From positions 1-34,096 of the IMG/VR virus record IMGVR_UViG_3300045241_000082: DNA of 34,096 bases, one strand, 5' to 3'. Positions within the stretch are counted from its first letter, which is position 1, and each line of letters starts with the position of its first letter. Below the pieces are notes generated by a model. The model made no database searches. It was given only the letters and a program-made list of their open reading frames with translations, and was not told where the DNA came from. The position numbers and the translations under genes were made by a program. Below are positions 1,821 to 25,549 of this stretch, piece by piece. Origin of the DNA: a virus.

Positions 1821-3586
1821 AGAAGGCCGACGCGGCGCATCCCGTCAACGCGTATGCTCTCGCGGTCACCGCGGGCGAGGTGGTCGCGTCGCGGTTGGTG
1901 CGACTTGCGTGCGCGCGGCATCTCGATGACCTTGCGCACGGCGCAGCGCGCGGGTTGGTCTGGAATCCAACCCGCGCGCTGGAAGCGATTGATTTCTTCC
2001 GCGAAATTCTCGTGCTCCCCGAGCGGACCGACGCTGGCGACGCGCTCGACGCCGACTCGCGCACGAGTGATCGCGTGCCGTTCCTGCTGCAGCCCTTCCA
2101 GGCGTTCATCGTCGGGTCGGTGTTCGGCTGGTACACGGTCGGCGGGTACCGGCGGTTCCGCGAGCTCTACGTCGAGACCGCGAAGGGCTCAGGAAAAACG
2201 CCACTCGGCGCAGGGATGATGCTGTACCTGCTCGTCGGCGACGGCGAGTACGCCGCGCAGGTGTATATCGCGGCCGTCACGAAGGACCAGGCGCGCCTCG
2301 CGTTCGTCGACGCCGAGGCGATGGTCAATGCGTCGCCGCCATTGGCCGACGCGCTCACGGCGACGGTGAATAACTTCTCGTACGATCCGACGCGCTCGTA
2401 CCTGCGCGCGATTTCGTCTGAGCGCCGCGGGCTCGACGGCAAGCGCGTCCACGGCGCGCTCATCGACGAGTTGCACGAGCACGCGACGCCCATCGTCGTG
2501 AACAAGATGCGCGCGGGCGTGAAGGGCCGACGGAACGCGCTCATCGTGAAGATCACGAACAGCGGGTACGACCGCACGTCGGTGTGCTGGTTCCATCACG
2601 AGTACTCGCGCAAGGTCCTCGACGGCACGTTCGCCAACGACGCGTGGTTCGCGTTCATCGCCGGGCTTGATCCCTGCGACGCGTGCGCCGCGAAGGGCAA
2701 ATGGTTTCCCACCGACGACTGTCCGACGTGCGACTCATGGAAGGTCGAGGGCCCGCACTGGTTGAAGGCGAATCCGAACCTCGGCGTGTCGCTCTCGTGG
2801 CAGTACCTGCGCGAGCGCGTCGATCAGGCCAAGGGCATGCCGTCGGAAGTGTCGGACGTCCTGCGCTTCAACTTCTGCGTCTGGACGTCGGCCTCGGCGC
2901 GCGCGATTGACATGGGCAAGTGGGCCGCGTGCCTGCCGATGCCGACCGAGGCCGAGCTCGTCGGGGCCCCGTGCTTCGGGTGCCTGGACCTGGGCGAGAC
3001 GGACGACTTCTCCGCGTTCGGGCGCGTGTGGGTGCTGGCCGACGGGCGGATCGCCGTCAAGATGCGGTACTGGTTGCCCGACGTCGCGCTCGAGCGCTTT
3101 CCAAATCGGCCGTACGACGCCTGGCGGCGCGCGGGGATCCTCACGGTGACCGAGGGCGACGTCACCGACTATGAGATCGTGCGGGCGACGATCCTCGACG
3201 ACGCGAAGCGCGACGGGCTCACGTCGGTCTTCTACGATCAGCGCACGGCGCGCGAGACGGCGCAGATTCTCATGGCCGGAGGGCTCGACATGGTGCCGAT
3301 GGCGCAAGGCTTCGCGCTCTCGGAAGCGCTCAATCGGCTCCTCGAACTCATCGCGGCGGGCCTCATCTGCCACGGCGACGACGAGATCCTCACGTGGATG
3401 GCCTCGAACGTCGTGACGCTCACCAATTCCAAACGCGAACGCCGCCTCGCGAAGGAACGGTCGCCGGAGAAGATTGACGGGATCGCCGCGCTCGTCAACG
3501 GCATCGAGGGCGCGCTCATTCGCCGCGAGCGCAAACCGCCGCCGTCGTACCAGTTGGCGTTTGTCGGAGGCACCCCCCGTGGCTGA
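1817..3586 (+). CDS. terL: Terminase large subunit, HK97-like (Terminase_1)
   Basis: This 589-residue packaging motor drives DNA into the prohead with ATP and cuts it with a C-terminal nuclease. Walker A is at residues 120-128 (ETAKGSGKT), Walker B at 214-218 (ALIDE), and the RNase H-like nuclease begins at CLDLGETDDFSAF (389-401). A conserved SPEKIDGIAALVNGI segment near the end holds the last catalytic Asp. An insert with Cys287, Cys290, Cys302 and Cys305 looks like a zinc knuckle between the ATPase and nuclease parts. It starts at GTG 1817, overlapping the previous stop by four bases. Confidence 0.95.
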   Translation: MKKADAAHPVNAYALAVTAGEVVASRLVRLACARHLDDLAHGAARGLVWNPTRALEAIDFFREILVLPERTDAGDALDADSRTSDRVPFLLQPFQAFIVGSVFGWYTVGGYRRFRELYVETAKGSGKTPLGAGMMLYLLVGDGEYAAQVYIAAVTKDQARLAFVDAEAMVNASPPLADALTATVNNFSYDPTRSYLRAISSERRGLDGKRVHGALIDELHEHATPIVVNKMRAGVKGRRNALIVKITNSGYDRTSVCWFHHEYSRKVLDGTFANDAWFAFIAGLDPCDACAAKGKWFPTDDCPTCDSWKVEGPHWLKANPNLGVSLSWQYLRERVDQAKGMPSEVSDVLRFNFCVWTSASARAIDMGKWAACLPMPTEAELVGAPCFGCLDLGETDDFSAFGRVWVLADGRIAVKMRYWLPDVALERFPNRPYDAWRRAGILTVTEGDVTDYEIVRATILDDAKRDGLTSVFYDQRTARETAQILMAGGLDMVPMAQGFALSEALNRLLELIAAGLICHGDDEILTWMASNVVTLTNSKRERRLAKERSPEKIDGIAALVNGIEGALIRRERKPPPSYQLAFVGGTPRG

Positions 3587-4910
3587 CGCGCCTGTGCACA
3601 TCAAAGACCTCGTGCCCGATCCGCAGAATCGGCGACGCCACAACGCGCGCAACCTCGGCATGGTCGTCGACGCGCTGCAGTCGGTCTGGGCCGCGCGCTC
3701 GATTGTGATCGACGAAGACAACGTGATCCTCGCGGGGAATGGCGTCACCGAAGCGGCGGCCGAGGCCGGCATCACGAAACTCCACGTCGTCGAGGTTGAC
3801 GGCGAGACGCTCGTGGCGGTCCGTCGCCGAGGCCTCACGGACGATCAGAAGCGGCAGCTCGCCATCTACGACAACCGCACGAGCGAACTCGCGGAGTGGA
3901 ATCCTGAGCAGTTGCGCGCCGACCAGGCCGCGGGGCTCGACCTCAAGCCGTGGTTCTCGCCCGACGAGCTCGCGCGGATCGTGGGGGCGACGGCGATGCC
4001 TGGCCTCACGGACCCTGACGTCGTGCCCGAGGTGCGCGCGACGACGATCCAGCGCGGCGACTTGTTCATGCTCGGCGCGCACCGGCTGCTCTGCGGCGAC
4101 GCCACGGACGCCGCCGACGTGGCGCGCGTCCTCGACGGCGTCGTGCCCGCGCTCCTGGTCACCGACCCGCCGTATGGCGTCGACTACGACCCGACGTGGC
4201 GCGCGACGGCGGGCGTCAATAAGAACCGCAAGAAACTCGGGACGGTCGCGAACGATGATCGCGCCGACTGGGGCGACGCCTGGGCGCACTTCCCCGGGGC
4301 CATCGCGTACGTGTGGCACGGCGGGCTCAAGGGCGCGGTCGTCCAGGCCTCGCTCGAGCGCTGGGACTTTGCGCTGCGCGCGCAAATCATCTGGGCGAAG
4401 GACCGCATGGCGCTCGGCCGCGGCGACTACCACTGGCAGCACGAGCCGTGTTGGTACGCGGTGCGCGGGGCTGCGGGCGCGCGCACCGATGACCGCACGC
4501 AGACGACCGTGTGGGAGATTCCCGCACGCGATGACGACGGGCACACGCACGGCACGCAGAAACCCGTCGAGTGCATGGCCCGGCCGATGCGCAACCACGT
4601 CGCGACGGACGTGTACGATCCATTCGTCGGCTCGGGCACGACGCTCATCGCGGCCGAGTCACTCGCGCGCCGCTGCTTCGCCCTCGACATCGAGCCGACG
4701 TACGTGCAAGTCGCGATAGATCGCTGGGAGGCGTTCACCGGGCAGACGGCCGTCAAGGTCGCGCCCGAGACGCCGAAGGGGACGACACATGCCAATGACG
4801 ATCAGCGTGCTGACACCCGGTCGCCGCGGCGGGCGACCGCGCGCCGCCGAACCCCGCGCGACGGTGAGCACGTGGGTGCCAGCGCGCGAGTACGACGTGC
4901 TCATCCGTGA
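3579..4910 (+). CDS. ParB-like domain fused to a beta-class DNA methyltransferase
   Basis: This 443-residue protein probably methylates adenine N6 or cytosine N4 in phage DNA. Residues 1-105 are ParB/sulfiredoxin-like (IKDLVPDPQNRRRHNARNL, then NVILAGNGV). The methyltransferase part has DPPY at 196-199, HGTQKP at 324-329 and DPFVGSGTT at 347-355; DPPY before the SAM-binding motif marks the beta class. GTG 3579 has a GGAGG eight bases upstream and overlaps terL by eight bases. The last 40 or so residues are Arg-rich and lie over the next gene in another frame. Placement between terL and capsid suggests protection of packaged DNA from host restriction, which is inference. Confidence 0.9.
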   Translation: MADAPVHIKDLVPDPQNRRRHNARNLGMVVDALQSVWAARSIVIDEDNVILAGNGVTEAAAEAGITKLHVVEVDGETLVAVRRRGLTDDQKRQLAIYDNRTSELAEWNPEQLRADQAAGLDLKPWFSPDELARIVGATAMPGLTDPDVVPEVRATTIQRGDLFMLGAHRLLCGDATDAADVARVLDGVVPALLVTDPPYGVDYDPTWRATAGVNKNRKKLGTVANDDRADWGDAWAHFPGAIAYVWHGGLKGAVVQASLERWDFALRAQIIWAKDRMALGRGDYHWQHEPCWYAVRGAAGARTDDRTQTTVWEIPARDDDGHTHGTQKPVECMARPMRNHVATDVYDPFVGSGTTLIAAESLARRCFALDIEPTYVQVAIDRWEAFTGQTAVKVAPETPKGTTHANDDQRADTRSPRRATARRRTPRDGEHVGASARVRRAHP

Positions 4911-4989
4911 AGCCGAACGGCGCGATCTGTCGGTGTCGGCGCTCGTGCGTGAGACGCTCGCGGCCCGTTTCCCTCTGAGAAAACCGTAG
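4789..4989 (+). CDS. Small ribbon-helix-helix protein
   Basis: This 66-residue basic protein starts at ATG 4789 behind GAAGGGG. The segment ATVSTWVPAREYDVLIREAERRD followed by LSVSALVRETLAARF fits a ribbon-helix-helix DNA-binding fold: a beta strand, then two helices. It overlaps the methyltransferase gene by 122 bases in another frame. It could be a small regulator of the capsid operon just downstream or an accessory protein of the methyltransferase; neither is shown. Confidence 0.65.
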   Translation: MPMTISVLTPGRRGGRPRAAEPRATVSTWVPAREYDVLIREAERRDLSVSALVRETLAARFPLRKP

Positions 4990-5000
4990 CGCGCAAGATC

Positions 5001-5048
5001 GCGCCGATACTGTTCGGCGCACGACTACCAGACTCGGCGTCACGAGTC
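5001..5048 (+). promoter_or_regulatory. Two hairpins in the leader of the capsid gene
   Basis: In the 81-base gap before the capsid gene, 5001-5007 pairs perfectly with 5014-5020 (GCGCCGA/TCGGCGC, six-base loop), and 5031-5036 pairs with 5043-5048 (GACTCG/CGAGTC, six-base loop). The second ends 22 bases before the TTG start. They could stabilise the capsid mRNA or control its translation. No clear promoter was seen. Confidence 0.4.
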
Positions 5049-5070
5049 GCAGGCGGCAGCAGGTTGCCCG

Positions 5071-7059
5071 TTGTCCCTGCATCGCGCGTACAGCACCTTC
5101 ACCCTCAAAGACCTCGACGACGACGCGCGCGTGATTCGTGGCATTGCCTCGACGCCGGAACCCGACCGGCTCGGCGACATCCTCGAACCGCTCGGCGCAT
5201 CGTTCAAGTTGCCGCTGCCGTTGCTCTTTCAGCACCGCGCCGCTGAACCCATCGGCCACGTCACCGACGCCACGGTGACGAAGGACGGCATCTCGATCAC
5301 CGCGCAGATCGCGAAGATCGGCATCGCGCGGATCGATGAGGCGTGGACGCTCATCAAGTCGCGGCTCGTGCGCGGGCTCTCAGTCGGCTTTCGGCCGACG
5401 GCTGAGCCTGAACTGATGATCGACGGCGACAACGTCGGCTTCCGCTGGGGCAAGTGGGAGTGGGTGGAACTGTCCGCGGTGACGATTCCCGCGAACCACT
5501 CGGCCGCGATCCTCACCGTGAAAAGTTTGGCGGCGCTTGACGCGCCCTTCCGCGCTGCGTCCAGCGCACCTCGTGAGCACGTTCCTCCTCGCGGCGACAC
5601 GCGAATAGCGGCGGTGCGAACAGTCGCACGCGCGAGCGTCACGATGGACACGAAAAATTACGCCGATGAAATCCGCAACTGGGAGAACACGCGACGCACG
5701 AAGGAAGATCGCCGCGAAGCGATCCTCGAGGCCGCGAAAAAGACGGGTGAACTGCCCGACGATGCCGCCAACACCGAGCTCGACGAGATCGCCGAACAGG
5801 TCAAGCGCATCAACGCGCACATCGGCCATCTGAAGGCCGCCGAGGCCGAGCAGATCGTCAGCGCGAAGGCCGTCGTCGTGACGGATCCGGCGAGTGCCGC
5901 GCGCGCGCGCGATCCGCAGGCGTCCATCATCCAGGTCCGCGCGAACCTGCCCATCGGGCAGGAGTTCATCCGCGTCGCCGTCTGCAAGATCAAGTCGCTG
6001 GTCGACGGCGGATCGACGTCGCCGCTCGCCTTCGCGAAGGCGCTCTATCCCGATTGCCCGCGCGTCATCCGGTATCTCGAACGCGCGGCGGTGCCCGCAG
6101 CCGGAACGGCCGACAACGCCTGGGCAGGCGCGCTCGTGCCGCACATCGACATCGCGTCGGAGTTCCTCGAGTTCCTCCGACCGGCGACGATCATCGGCAA
6201 GTTCGGCCTGAACGGCGTGCCGGATCTGCGGCGCGTGCCGTTCAACGCGCGCATCGTCGGGCAGACGGGCGGCGGCACCGGGTACTGGGTCGGGCAGGGT
6301 GCGGCGAAGCCACTCACCAAGTCGCAGTACGCCGACCAGACGCTCACCTGGACGAAGGTCGCCGCGATCAGCACGCTGACGGACGACCTCGCGCGCTTCT
6401 CGTCGCCGTCGGCCGAACTGCTCATCCGGCAGGACCTGACCGACGCGCTCGTCGCGCGGCTCGACCAGGACTTCGTCGATCCGGCGAAGGCGGCGGTCGC
6501 GTCGGTGAGTCCCGCGTCGATCACGAACGGCGTCGCGCCGCTCGTGTCGTCGGGCACGTCAGCGGATGCGATCCGCGCCGACCTCTACGCGATCCTCGCG
6601 GCGTACACCACCGCGAACCAGAGCGTCGGTGGGCTCGTGCTGATCATGCCCGAGTCGCTCGGGCTCGGGCTCGCGCTCATGCGCAACCCGCTCGGGCAGT
6701 CGGAGTTCCCGGGTCTGACCGCGAAGGGCGGCAACCTCGAGGGGATCCCGGTCATCACGTCGCAGTTCGCGGTGCACGCGGGCAAGAAGATGGTCATCGC
6801 GGCGAACACGCGGTACATCCTCCTCGCCGACGACGGGCAAGTGAGCATCGACGCGAGCCGCGAGGCCTCCCTGGAAATGAGCGACGCGCCGACCGGCAAC
6901 TCGATCACGGGCGCGCTGCCGACGGGCGGGATGATCTCGATGTTCCAGACGAACAGCATCGCGTTGCGCGCCGAGCGGTTCATCAACTGGGGCAAGTCGA
7001 TGGCGGGCGCGGTCGTGTGGATGGACAACGTCGCCTGGGGTTCGGCGACGGGCTCGTAA
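5071..7059 (+). CDS. Prohead protease-major capsid protein fusion (HK97 fold)
   Basis: This 662-residue polyprotein joins maturation protease, scaffold and capsid subunit. Residues 1-150 match the HK97 (S78/U35) prohead protease: His55 in LLFQHRAAEPIG, Ser104 in RGLSVGF, Glu133 in WEWVELSAVTIPAN. Residues 195-265 form a charged helical delta/scaffold-like domain. From about residue 285 it is an HK97-type coat protein, with ANLPIGQEFIRV, YWVGQGAAKPLTKSQY and the C-terminal domain. TTG 5071 is used because the frame is open back to a stop at 4987 without ATG or GTG, and AGCAGG lies seven bases upstream. The protease must cut itself away from the capsid part. Confidence 0.9.
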   Translation: MSLHRAYSTFTLKDLDDDARVIRGIASTPEPDRLGDILEPLGASFKLPLPLLFQHRAAEPIGHVTDATVTKDGISITAQIAKIGIARIDEAWTLIKSRLVRGLSVGFRPTAEPELMIDGDNVGFRWGKWEWVELSAVTIPANHSAAILTVKSLAALDAPFRAASSAPREHVPPRGDTRIAAVRTVARASVTMDTKNYADEIRNWENTRRTKEDRREAILEAAKKTGELPDDAANTELDEIAEQVKRINAHIGHLKAAEAEQIVSAKAVVVTDPASAARARDPQASIIQVRANLPIGQEFIRVAVCKIKSLVDGGSTSPLAFAKALYPDCPRVIRYLERAAVPAAGTADNAWAGALVPHIDIASEFLEFLRPATIIGKFGLNGVPDLRRVPFNARIVGQTGGGTGYWVGQGAAKPLTKSQYADQTLTWTKVAAISTLTDDLARFSSPSAELLIRQDLTDALVARLDQDFVDPAKAAVASVSPASITNGVAPLVSSGTSADAIRADLYAILAAYTTANQSVGGLVLIMPESLGLGLALMRNPLGQSEFPGLTAKGGNLEGIPVITSQFAVHAGKKMVIAANTRYILLADDGQVSIDASREASLEMSDAPTGNSITGALPTGGMISMFQTNSIALRAERFINWGKSMAGAVVWMDNVAWGSATGS

Positions 7060-7369: not shown

Positions 7370-8785
7370 GTGAAGTTGCCGTTCGGCCTCACCATCGTGC
7401 GCACAAAAGCGCTGCGCCTCGTCGCCGCGCAGCAGGCGAAACTGCAGTCGGTCGCCGCGGCGGGCGGCCGTGGGTGGTTTCCGATCATCCGCGAGCCGTA
7501 CACGGGGGCCTGGCAGCGCAACGACGAGCTCGCCGTGCCGAGCGTGCTCTGCTACTCGGTCGTCTACGCGTGCGTCACGCTCATCGCGTCGGACATCGGG
7601 AAGCTCCGCATCAAGCTCGTCGAGGAAGACGCCGAAGGCATCACGGTCGAGATCGAGAACCCGGCGTACTCGCCCGTGCTGCGCAAACCGAACAGTTATC
7701 AGAATCGGATCAAGTTCCTCGAACAGTGGGTGGTCTCGAAGCTCCTGTTCGGGAACACGTACCTCTTGAAGCAGCGCGACGCGCGTGGGGTCGTGCGCGG
7801 CCTCTATGTGCTCGATCCGTCGCGCGTGACGGTGGCCGTGTCGCCCGACGGCGCGGTGTTCTACCAACTGTCGACCGACAACCTCGCGGGCCTCGAGGCG
7901 CAGGTCACCGTGCCTGCCGCCGAGATGATCCACGACGTGATGGTGCCGCTCTATCACCCGCTGATCGGCGTGTCGCCCATCACAGCGTGCGGACTGGCCG
8001 CGGTGCAGGGCCTGCACGTCCAGGCGAACGCGTCGAACTTCTTCGGCAACGGCGCGAATCCCTCCGGCGTCGTCACCGCGCCCGGGCACATCCCGCCTGA
8101 AGTCGTCGAGCGGTTGAAGACGACGTGGGCGACGGAGTTCACCGGCGAGAACGCGGGCAAGGTCGCGATCATGGGCGACGGGCTCAAGTTCGAAGCGATG
8201 ACGATGAGCGCGGTCGACGCGCAGCTCATCGATCAGCTCAAGTGGACGGGCGAGAACGTGTGCACAGCGTTCCACGTGCCCGCGTACATGGTCGGCGTCG
8301 GGCCGATGCCCTCGTACAACAACGTCGAGGCGCTGCAAGGGCAGTACTACACGCAGTGTTTGCAGACGCTCATCGAGTGCATCGAACTCCTGCTCGATGA
8401 AGGGCTCGGGCTCGCGTCGACGCTCTACACCGAACTCGACATCGACAGTCTCCTGCGCATGGACACGGCGACGAAGACGAAGGCGGCGGCGGACCTGATC
8501 GGCTCGGGCGCGTGGGCCCCGAACGAAGCACGGAAGCGCTGGTTCAATCTGCGCGGCGTCGCGGGCGGCGACTCGCCGTATCTGCAGCAGCAGAATTATT
8601 CGCTCGCCGCGCTCGCCAAACGCGACGCGAAGGCGGATCCGTTCGCAGGCGCGACCCCACCGCCCGCGCCAACCCCGCCGCCGACGAACCCGCCGATGAA
8701 GGCCGCTGATGCCGTGCTGGTGACGTTCGACCTGGTCGACACAATCTTGGCGCACGAATATCAATTCGCCGAGGCGGCGCTGTGA
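7370..8785 (+). CDS. Portal protein, HK97-like
   Basis: This 471-residue protein forms the dodecameric ring through which DNA enters and leaves the head. Signatures of the HK97-type portal are VYACVTLIASDIGKLRIKL, the LLFGNTYLL strand, LYVLDPSRVTV, the wing segment HVQANASNFFGNGANPSGVV, and HVPAYMVGVG with NNVEALQGQYYTQCL. GTG 7370 is chosen because GAGGA lies ten bases upstream and longer in-frame starts run into the previous gene. The gene lies after the capsid gene, whereas most HK97-like phages have it before the protease and capsid. Confidence 0.93.
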   Translation: MKLPFGLTIVRTKALRLVAAQQAKLQSVAAAGGRGWFPIIREPYTGAWQRNDELAVPSVLCYSVVYACVTLIASDIGKLRIKLVEEDAEGITVEIENPAYSPVLRKPNSYQNRIKFLEQWVVSKLLFGNTYLLKQRDARGVVRGLYVLDPSRVTVAVSPDGAVFYQLSTDNLAGLEAQVTVPAAEMIHDVMVPLYHPLIGVSPITACGLAAVQGLHVQANASNFFGNGANPSGVVTAPGHIPPEVVERLKTTWATEFTGENAGKVAIMGDGLKFEAMTMSAVDAQLIDQLKWTGENVCTAFHVPAYMVGVGPMPSYNNVEALQGQYYTQCLQTLIECIELLLDEGLGLASTLYTELDIDSLLRMDTATKTKAAADLIGSGAWAPNEARKRWFNLRGVAGGDSPYLQQQNYSLAALAKRDAKADPFAGATPPPAPTPPPTNPPMKAADAVLVTFDLVDTILAHEYQFAEAAL

Positions 8786-23581: not shown

Positions 23582-23911
23582 TCAGGTCTCGCGCATCAGC
23601 CAGAACGGCACGAACCCACCGCCCCATGACCACATCCACGGCGGGTCGAACCCGTCGAGCGAACAGTTGATGACGCCACTGGGTTGGTCCGGATCGGTCA
23701 CCGGCGCAGGCGGCGACGCCAGGAATTCCACGGCCGAGAGGCCGCTCACTCGTTCCAACCGCACGGCGACGCGCAAGGACGGCGAGCGGTGCCCCCGCAG
23801 AATGAGCGACAGATACACCGGACTGATGCCGATCTGGGCCGCGAGCCATTGCTGCGTCTTCCGGCGCTCGCGCAGCCAGTCCTGAATCTGGGCTCGGCGG
23901 TCGGGATGCAT
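23582..23911 (-). CDS. XRE-type helix-turn-helix regulator
   Basis: This 109-residue protein starts at ATG 23911 behind an AGGACGG site; an upstream GTG (23953) would add 14 residues but has no better ribosome site. Residues 4-60 form a Cro/CI-like helix-turn-helix (RRKTQQWLAAQIGISPVYLS and LILRGHRSPSLRVAVRLERV). The C-terminal half is Pro/Trp-rich and of unknown fold. Its place beside attP, on the same strand as the recombinase fusion, suggests a role in prophage maintenance, but this is not shown. Confidence 0.75.
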   Translation of the reverse strand: MHPDRRAQIQDWLRERRKTQQWLAAQIGISPVYLSLILRGHRSPSLRVAVRLERVSGLSAVEFLASPPAPVTDPDQPSGVINCSLDGFDPPWMWSWGGGFVPFWLMRET

Positions 23912-23975
23912 CAGTGCACCGTCCTGGAGTGCTTCAGCCGCGAACCGTAACACAGACGGGCTTCACTGGGCCGAC

Positions 23976-24000
23976 GGGTAATCCCACACAAAGATCCCAC
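23976..24000 (+). repeat. Putative left arm-type recombinase sites
   Basis: A GGGTAATCCCAC copy (23976-23987) is followed by a half match, AGATCCCAC (23992-24000). They match four copies on the other side of the attP core (24163-24262) and are best read as arm-type binding sites for the recombinase or excisionase. Confidence 0.5.
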
Positions 24001-24045: not shown

Positions 24046-24090
24046 CTCCTAAGGCGGGGGTCGGCCGTTCGAATCGGCCCGGGCGCACCA
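24046..24090 (+). other. attP: attP core: 3' half of a tRNA-Arg(CCT) gene
   Basis: These 45 bases read as a tRNA 3' half: anticodon loop CTCCTAA (anticodon CCT at 24048-24050), stem and variable region, a perfect T arm (GGCCG, TTCGAAT, CGGCC), the acceptor strand CGGGCGC, A, and encoded CCA at 24088-24090. The 5' half is absent: the sequence just upstream does not form a good anticodon stem and no GCGCCCG acceptor strand lies within reach. Such a 3' half restores the host tRNA after integration. It lies 19 bases beyond the recombinase stop. Host tRNA identity is inferred from the anticodon only. Confidence 0.75.
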
Positions 24091-24109: not shown

Positions 24110-24928
24110 CTAGTCGGATCGACGTTTTGTCCGGACGAGCCGAGGTCCGGCGACGGGTGTTTGGGTGATCCCGCGTGCGCTAGATTGCGCCAGATTCCGC
24201 TGGTTTGCGGTCGAGGTAATCCCCGAGGTGATCCCAGGTGGGGCACCGACAGGTAATCCCACGGCCCCGCCCCCGGAGGGCGGAGCTCCATCGATCTGAC
24301 CAACGGTGCGATCGAAGTGCTCGACGACGACCGCGCCATGCGCAGCGGCGACCTGGGCCTCGGCCTCCATGACGTACCGGCGCGTCGTCACGGCCGATCC
24401 GTGCTGCATGAGTTGGGCGACGGCTTCGGTCGACGCGGTCGCGCGCAGGGCGGCGGTCGCGAACGAGTGCCGCAGGTCGTAGGGCCGGACGGCACGACCG
24501 AGGCCCGCTTTCTTGGCGGCCACTTTGAAGCTCTTCCGGAGCGAGGAGTTAGAAAACGAGCCGTACAGGTGCGCGTCGTCGAACGCCGTGAAGGCCTCGA
24601 CGGCCTGGCGCGTGAGCGCGATCCACAGGGCCGGGCGGCCGGTCCCCTTGTGGCGGGCGGGGAGTCGGAGACGGCCGTGGGCGAGATCCAGATCCGCGGG
24701 CGTCAGGGCGGCGAGCTGGCTGTAGATCACGTCGACGATCGACAAGTCCAGCGCGCGGGCGCACTTGTCGAGGCTCTCGATGTGCCCCGCCTGGCCGTCC
24801 TCGATGACCTGGACGGTCTTATAGCTCGGCCCGCCCGCGTGCTCGACGTCGGTGACTTTCCATTTCCGATCGAGCCGCGCTTGCTGGAGATGTTTGCCGA
24901 CGGCCAGTAAGAGTTCCTCTAAGTTCAC
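24110..24928 (-). CDS. XRE DNA-binding domain fused to a truncated tyrosine recombinase
   Basis: This 272-residue protein, starting at GTG 24928, has an XRE helix-turn-helix (about 8-70; WKVTDVEHAGGPSYKTVQVI) joined at about residue 72 to the later part of a tyrosine recombinase catalytic domain: beta-hairpin Lys94 (RHKGTGRP), YDLRH at 150-154 (Tyr in place of the His of HxxR), LMQHGS with His176, and nucleophile Tyr185 (TTRRYV). The core-binding domain and the first catalytic Arg are missing. The last 80 residues are low-complexity and encode the arm-type DNA repeats. A longer TTG start (24970) would lie upstream of the -10 element. It may serve as integrase, repressor, or both, or be a decayed gene. 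Confidence 0.75.
   Translation of the reverse strand: MNLEELLLAVGKHLQQARLDRKWKVTDVEHAGGPSYKTVQVIEDGQAGHIESLDKCARALDLSIVDVIYSQLAALTPADLDLAHGRLRLPARHKGTGRPALWIALTRQAVEAFTAFDDAHLYGSFSNSSLRKSFKVAAKKAGLGRAVRPYDLRHSFATAALRATASTEAVAQLMQHGSAVTTRRYVMEAEAQVAAAHGAVVVEHFDRTVGQIDGAPPSGGGAVGLPVGAPPGITSGITSTANQRNLAQSSARGITQTPVAGPRLVRTKRRSD
24163..24262 (+). repeat. Right arm-type repeats inside the recombinase gene
   Basis: Four copies of RGGTRATCCC lie at 24163-24174, 24214-24224, 24226-24237 and 24251-24262, all in the same direction. They match the left copies at 23976-24000, and the attP core lies between the two groups. On the coding strand they give the recurring Gly-Ile-Thr tripeptides near the recombinase C-terminus. 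Arm-type binding sites are the best explanation. Confidence 0.55.
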
Positions 24929-24937
24929 GGCCTCTAC

Positions 24938-24966
24938 AGTATAAGAAAGTTCTTCTAGCGGTTCCG
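24938..24966 (-). promoter_or_regulatory. Promoter of the XRE-recombinase gene with operator in its spacer
   Basis: On the minus strand a -10 of TATACT (24938-24943) lies ten bases from the GTG start at 24928. The 17-base spacer (24944-24960) is CGCTAGAAGAACTTTCT, almost identical to the plus-strand promoter's spacer. The -35 (24961-24966, CGGAAC) is poor, as expected for a regulated or activated promoter. The expected leader is only a few bases long. Confidence 0.5.
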
Positions 24967-25024: not shown

Positions 25025-25053
25025 TTGACGGCGCTAGAAGAATTTTCTAAGAT
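25025..25053 (+). promoter_or_regulatory. Rightward early promoter with operator in its spacer
   Basis: A -35 of TTGACG (25025-25030), a 17-base spacer and a -10 of TAAGAT (25048-25053) lie just before ATG 25062. The usual distance puts transcription start at about 25060, so the message would be essentially leaderless. The operator-like sequence CGCTAGAAGAATTTTCT (25032-25048) holds an inverted repeat TAGAA-n5-TTCTA (25035-25049). AT-rich sequence upstream (24990-25024) stands out from the GC-rich surroundings. Confidence 0.65.
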
Positions 25054-25061
25054 TTGCGGAA

Positions 25062-25319
25062 ATGACTTTCCGGCAGCTCCTGCACGAGGCCGGCATGACG
25101 GGCTCCCGGCTCGCGAAGCTCAGCGGGGTCGAGCAGACGACCATCTCGCAGCTCGAACTGGGCAAGGTCCGGGATCCCCGCTGGTCCACCCTCTCGGCCC
25201 TGGCCACTGCCCTGGACACCGCGCCGGGCACCGTCGCCAAAGCCATCGCCGAAACCCCCAAACGCCAGACCCCCAAAGCGGGCAAACGGCCCGCCGCCAA
25301 ACGGAGGATCGCGTCATGA
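25062..25319 (+). CDS. XRE-family Cro-like regulator
   Basis: This 85-residue protein has an XRE helix-turn-helix in residues 1-60 (LHEAGMTGSRLAKLSGVEQT, TISQLELGKVRDPRWSTLSA, LATALDTAPG) and a Lys/Pro-rich tail. It is the first gene of the rightward operon and is transcribed away from the XRE-recombinase fusion, like cro against cI. No ribosome site is well placed and the predicted message is leaderless. It probably binds the shared operator. Confidence 0.8.
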   Translation: MTFRQLLHEAGMTGSRLAKLSGVEQTTISQLELGKVRDPRWSTLSALATALDTAPGTVAKAIAETPKRQTPKAGKRPAAKRRIAS

Positions 25320-25549
25320 CCCCGCTGCGGCTCACTCTCGTGGACGCCCGCGAGCCGGATCTCTTGAACGCGCGCGAACTCATGGCGCGCGTCGGGTTGA
25401 AGGCCTCGCGCTTCTATGCCCTCGAGCGATCGGGGTTCTGGAAGTTTCTAGAGACGACCCGGCCGCTCGGGCACCGGCGCTTTGCGCGCGTGCTCGTCGA
25501 GAAATACCTGGCGGGGGAGTCGGCGGTGCAACTGCGGCGGCGGGCGTGA
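25316..25549 (+). CDS. Excisionase/AlpA-like DNA-binding protein
   Basis: This 77-residue protein shows a winged-helix pattern: LLNARELMARVGLKASRFYA, then LERSGFWKFLETTRPLGHRR with the wing, and a closing helix. It fits the excisionase/MerR-like family that directs recombination towards excision or regulates integrase. ATG 25316 overlaps the Cro-like stop (ATGA) and has GGAGG upstream. Confidence 0.65.
   Translation: MTPLRLTLVDAREPDLLNARELMARVGLKASRFYALERSGFWKFLETTRPLGHRRFARVLVEKYLAGESAVQLRRRA

Follow-up and report, generated by a model that had tools for sequence, protein, structure and literature searches.

The IntDes subgroup of integrases has Tyr in place of the first His of the catalytic pentad (YxLR), has the canonical Arg I missing or shifted, and is described only from Desulfovibrio (PMC8138268). 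In IntDOT, the integrase of CTnDOT, Arg I is replaced by an Arg further downstream (PMC8138268). MrpR (YopR), the master repressor of SPbeta, has a recombinase fold and no recombinase activity (PMC10516654, PMC8612738). In the BPs cassette, a left-pointing repressor gene and integrase gene are divergent from a Cro-like gene, with two promoters and operators between them (PMC4557955).

Here we describe an XRE-integrase fusion gene, P0001, that shares features with each of these systems. It lies in a window of 34,096 bases, the whole stretch of DNA that was analysed. The window is an entire IMG/VR virus record, from an uncultured phage, with 67.5% GC and without terminal repeats. Most likely the gene is a one-off product of a deletion that joined two neighbours, and not a new kind of enzyme.

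The fusion gene and its context

Genes for terminase, a fused protease-capsid protein, portal and tail lie to the left of P0001, and genes for an exonuclease, a Dam-like methylase and RusA lie to the right. The fusion itself is one uninterrupted frame with no internal stop:

24110..24928, minus strand: XRE-integrase fusion gene P0001; GTG start at 24928, stop codon at 24110-24112, 272 amino acids, coding GC3 in one frame
24719..24928, minus strand: XRE (Cro/CI-type) helix-turn-helix half, residues 1-70; aligned by hhalign to the phage XRE profile
24329..24718, minus strand: tyrosine-recombinase catalytic half, residues 71-200; PF00589 match; R92, K94, Y150 (YDLR), R153, H176 and Y185
24113..24328, minus strand: C-terminal tail, residues 201-272; GC3 0.64; overlapped by four P'-side arm-type repeats

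The GC3 was 0.86 in the XRE half and 0.88 in the catalytic half, with about 0.8-0.9 in the other genes, and it fell to 0.64 in the tail past residue 200. Both halves look like genuine coding sequence in a single frame, the tail less so. Such coding-like composition on both sides of the join suggests that the fusion event was recent or that its product was kept.

A sequence-only reading of this DNA had described an XRE helix-turn-helix joined straight to the later part of a tyrosine recombinase. This description holds, with the XRE domain at residues 9-68 and the catalytic domain from Q71, and the junction is moved from about 24712 to about 24718/24719 (residues 70/71). The same reading had found no other recombinase in the phage, and we agree: P0001 gave the only PF00589 match and is the sole integrase-family gene, no serine recombinase was found in the record, and it has no complete integrase elsewhere, which by that reading would have weakened the case. 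The S24 domain (PF00717) had no match anywhere in the record, and an Rfam search of the sequence gave no match. At 3474-4910, beside the terminase gene (phrog_498), a ParB-like N-terminal domain is fused to a DNA methyltransferase.

The catalytic half and its relatives

Residues 70-189 matched the Pfam Phage_integrase profile (PF00589, E 1.3e-11), covering only positions 39-169 of its 172. The residue table showed K94, R153, H176 and Y185 to be kept, in line with the earlier claim that Lys94, His176 and Tyr185 were intact, with Y150 at the His of HxxR and Ile68 at the position of Arg I. P0001 certainly lacks all that would precede Q71, with both the arm-binding and core-binding domains and the opening helices of the catalytic domain gone.

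With the terminase as query, a scan identified 80 relatives of the phage, and searches of their records added to the full-length integrases already known from IMG/VR records. The clade of P0001 had five full-length members: L089, the same integrase in the IMG/VR records L004 and L005; L091 in G007; L092 in G038; L093 in L006 (G044); and L094 in G012. These appear to be full-length and apparently intact integrases of uncultured phages, and the relatives of the integrase half were 34-41% identical to P0001. The L004 integrase showed 41% identity, in an alignment beginning exactly at Q71, just past its own Arg I (TGIRAG/QLMRLTP, with the slash at the start of the alignment). In the tree, P0001 stood beside L093 (84/89), and most of the other forks were without resolution. 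A search for L091 homologues at E 1e-3 found no match in 50,697 phage records, and degenerate DNA patterns around YDLRH matched only three loci. A canonical integrase of a different kind is found in G003, the relative nearest by terminase.

Tyr takes the place of the HxxR His in all six clade proteins (P0001 and the five full-length members). The position of Arg I has an Arg only in L089 and L094; P0001 has Ile there, L091 and L093 have Pro, and L092 has Ala. At Lys-2, the second residue ahead of the catalytic Lys, Arg is found in four of the six (P0001, L091, L092 and L093), Thr in L089, and Ala or Thr in the loosely aligned L094. Among these six sequences only, Arg at Lys-2 coincides with a missing Arg I, whereas L089 and L094 keep Arg I without an Arg at Lys-2. 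In P0001 this Arg is R92, two residues before the catalytic K94 and a candidate substitute for Arg I. We hypothesize from the same six sequences that R92 might serve as the replacement catalytic Arg.

YxLR is normal in this clade and Arg I is absent from several full-length relatives, so neither feature proves decay of P0001. The sequence-only reading was correct that the first catalytic Arg is gone, but it is also gone in three of the five full-length relatives, which have Arg at Lys-2 as well. HxxR does read YDLR, as had been noted, but we rejected it as a mark of decay because every clade member carries Tyr there. The clade makes the question of a relocated catalytic Arg directly testable. 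It may even be more important than the fusion, with Tyr for the first His throughout, several members without Arg I, and an XRE gene upstream wherever the DNA is known.

The N-terminal half

The frame of P0001 opens with the XRE domain and has nothing before it; an arm-binding domain is absent. We built two profiles, one from the XRE domains of the phage and its relatives and the other from the core-binding part of the nearest full-length integrases. Residues 9-68 aligned end to end with the XRE profile (hhalign prob 74.5, P 2.7e-5), whereas the core-binding profile, built from P0001's own integrase clade, gave no alignment to P0001 (hhalign prob 0.1), which bears out the earlier claim that the core-binding domain is absent. 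Among the single proteins tested, the best match of the XRE half was the CI-like repressor of G012 (15 bits).

The XRE half scored below the Pfam cut-offs (HTH_26, E 0.021), which suggests a divergent XRE domain. Structure modelling, proposed earlier as a check, was carried out with AlphaFold from 1 and 4 input sequences; the mean pLDDT values of 39 and 41 were too low to settle the fold or judge the active site. The sub-threshold Pfam score and the poor models would be compatible with another reading, in which the first 70 residues derive from a core-binding domain that has diverged, making P0001 simply a short integrase. We consider this extremely unlikely, because the core-binding profile fails where the XRE profile matches.

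The switch region and attP

The region ahead of the fusion gene contains the following:

24944..24958, minus strand: operator-like site CTAGAAGAACTTTCT, abutting the TATACT -10-like box (24938-24943) ahead of the fusion gene
25034..25048, plus strand: operator-like site CTAGAAGAATTTTCT, within the spacer of the rightward promoter
25025..25053, plus strand: rightward promoter-like sequence TTGACG-17-TAAGAT; 1 found against 0.2 expected
25062..25319, plus strand: Cro-like XRE protein, divergent from the fusion; Pfam HTH_26 2.2e-10; 45% identity to the Cro-like gene of G012
25316..25549, plus strand: excisionase-like small protein; phrog_66 E 8e-4 over the longer open frame 25025-25549

The two operator-like sites are near-identical to each other, and no further site in the window matches when up to 3 mismatches are allowed (2 seen against 0.17 expected). 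They are unlike the arm-type repeats and unlike the attP core. The TATACT box lies just downstream of CTAGAAGAACTTTCT and has a poor -35; from its position, the fusion transcript is predicted to start only a few bases from the GTG. The lambda cI message is leaderless, and the predicted start of the fusion transcript resembles it. Judged by its sequence, the region has the layout of a CI/Cro-type switch with the fusion in the CI position.

On the other side of the fusion are sites of the kind used in integration:

24046..24090, plus strand: attP core, a tRNA 3' half read from the sequence as tRNA-Arg(CCU), from the anticodon loop to ACCA
23977..23985, plus strand: P-side arm-type repeat GGTAATCCC, of the form GGTRATCCC
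24164..24260, plus strand: P'-side arm-type repeats GGTRATCCC at 24164, 24215, 24227 and 24252, all in one orientation

GGTRATCCC occurs 6 times in the window against 0.2 expected, and five of the six copies flank attP, on both sides. The tRNA half and the repeats look like an intact attP with putative arm-type sites, suited to an integrase with the arm-binding domain that P0001 has lost; the earlier statement that the arm sites and attP survive agrees with this. No full tRNA was found at 24046-24090, and a search for the host with the tRNA half gave nothing in IMG/VR or in the contigs of GTDB r220 (one genome for each of about 85,000 species), where a slightly degenerate form, with several positions relaxed, also had no match. 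The attP core lies about 20 bases past the stop codon of the fusion, outside its frame, so integration would not alter the protein. We rejected integration-dependent immunity of the BPs type for this reason. On the far side of attP is a second leftward XRE regulator (23582..23953, minus strand; Pfam HTH_3 5.8e-9), with 47% identity to an XRE frame near the integrase of G003.

Gene order in relatives and origin of the fusion

All four relatives with upstream DNA (L004, L006, G038 and G012) have an XRE gene upstream of the clade integrase and on its strand. In L004, an XRE frame at 3091-3690, which may contain a frameshift, precedes the integrase at 3724-4731, whose GTG at 3724 is overlapped, in the sequence GTGA, by a frame that ends at 3727. 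The XRE gene (4491-4946) and the integrase (2945-4120) of L006 are both on the minus strand, and G038 has two small frames between its XRE gene (L097:6659-7018) and its integrase (4621-5691). In G012, a CI-type repressor with XRE and S24 domains (L101:7582-8307) is found with the integrase (4745-5812) and with a divergent Cro-like gene (8388-8615), the one 45% identical to that of the window. With respect to integrase and Cro, the G012 repressor is placed and oriented as the fusion is, and it is the most similar of the tested relatives to the XRE half of P0001. It differs in having its own S24 domain and a separate, full-length integrase, neither of which is found in P0001. In the window, nothing but P0001 lies between attP and the divergent switch region.

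The deletion fusion of a repressor gene and an integrase gene that had been suggested earlier is well supported by this gene order. We think that the best explanation overall is probably an in-frame deletion between these neighbouring genes, and we are fairly confident of a deletion fusion as a historical event. The ancestor would have been a temperate phage with a left-pointing repressor gene followed by an integrase gene, with a Cro-like gene diverging from this pair and attP at its end. As judged from the relatives, the deletion would have taken the rest of the repressor, the spacer, the arm-binding and core-binding domains of the integrase and the first catalytic helices. The remainders would have been joined in frame, with one end after the helix-turn-helix and the other inside the integrase catalytic domain. 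The product would keep the DNA-binding head of the repressor and carry the integrase remnant as a C-terminal domain acquired by accident, and the phage would then be lytic or dependent on an integrase supplied from elsewhere.

A single deletion with these two ends would account for a fusion standing alone between the switch region and attP, and the abrupt start at Q71 of the homology to full-length integrases supports it. The survival of attP and the arm-type repeats suggests that the change was recent or tolerated. On the other side, the join is in frame and the XRE domain is whole, which a random deletion would give only some of the time, and all of the known important residues in the retained catalytic part are kept, which need not be so in a purely decayed gene. 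No close sister or intermediate with both genes intact was found, and the integrase relatives are at most 41% identical, so we infer the deletion from gene order.

The earlier proposal to look for a homologous fusion in other phages gave no second copy. The same fusion was found neither by exact short-peptide scans of IMG/VR and GTDB, which distant copies could escape, nor by tblastn in 50,697 phages and in 72,556 plasmids, where the catalytic part alone matched, nor in 42 related or fetched virus records. A scan with a neighbouring early gene found nothing.

Activity of the product and alternative explanations

The XRE head is kept, and neither the two operator-like sites nor the two promoter-like sites are disrupted, so P0001 plausibly still binds there. 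Given a deletion fusion, we tentatively suggest that it may bind these sites and damp both itself and the Cro/excisionase operon, at somewhat less than an even chance. Tyrosine recombinases clamp the core site with the core-binding domain. P0001 no longer has the parts for gripping the core site and for reaching the arm sites, and is very likely unable to integrate the phage alone; we would put integration by this protein alone among the improbable outcomes.

The idea that one protein couples repression and integration, which the sequence-only reading had raised, was left without support by the loss of these domains and by the searches for homologous fusions. In its selected form, the XRE head would target the regulatory region or attP and a catalytic half with an IntDes-like site would carry out strand exchange. 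The retained active-site positions (R92, K94, Y150, R153, H176 and Y185) are intact, R92 matches the Arg of the full-length relatives that lack Arg I, no stop interrupts the coding frame at the join, and attP, the arm-type repeats and an excisionase-like gene are all there. Against these points stand the absence of the arm-binding domain, the core-binding domain and the first catalytic helices, operator-like sites that resemble neither the arm-type repeats nor the core, and the lack of a second example in our searches, and we regard such a bifunctional protein as very improbable. A working chimera, in which the XRE domain replaces the arm-binding and core-binding domains, the active site uses the Lys-2 Arg and Tyr for His, and the protein represses the lytic promoter and recombines attP, would be slightly less probable still. 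A metagenome misassembly that brought two genes together could likewise produce a single record with no second copy. This too seems very improbable, because the joined halves share one frame and both have coding composition, the join has no repeat that could drive misassembly, and its flanks are the right ones, with operator-like sites on one side and attP on the other.

P0001 might instead be a repurposed repressor, whatever its origin, in which the integrase remnant is only an oligomerization or regulatory domain kept by selection, an outcome like MrpR of SPbeta. The XRE head and the intact operator-like and promoter-like sites are consistent with this, and there is precedent for repressors with a recombinase fold (PMC10516654, PMC8612738). 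The catalytic half keeps its own residues, however, unlike MrpR, where catalytic Arg and His are lost, and the explanation presumes that an integrase remnant can stand in for the lost C-terminal half of a repressor. We consider it unlikely, though it should be taken seriously. Such a repressor would be expected to bind CTAGAAGAAYTTTCT and to repress the rightward promoter at 25025-25053.

If the fusion is only a deletion, it would be a snapshot of a temperate phage losing lysogeny yet keeping its switch region, and would illustrate how two adjacent genes can give rise to a domain fusion. A P0001 that has kept repression would be a repressor whose tail is the catalytic domain of a recombinase.

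Comparison with known systems

The Arg that replaces Arg I in IntDOT is R285, two residues before K287, a spacing like that of R92 and K94 in P0001. IntDOT is an active enzyme with arm-binding and core-binding domains, both of which P0001 lacks. YxLR and the absence of Arg I, the two features given for IntDes, are found together in the full-length L091, L092 and L093, and P0001 has Y150. IntDes carries arm-binding, core-binding and catalytic domains, in contrast to P0001, which is without the first two (PMC8138268). The shifted Arg of IntDes and R92 are a candidate equivalence only.

The switch region of the window has the same cassette layout as BPs. In BPs, the genes are separate and attP is inside the repressor frame, whereas in the window the genes are fused and the attP core lies beyond the stop codon (PMC4557955). 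MrpR has a recombinase-family fold in a phage repressor, as a repurposed P0001 would have. Its domains are the core-binding and catalytic ones, without an XRE domain, and it no longer has its catalytic Arg and His residues. By this analogy, a repurposed P0001 would have a precedent in kind, not in architecture.
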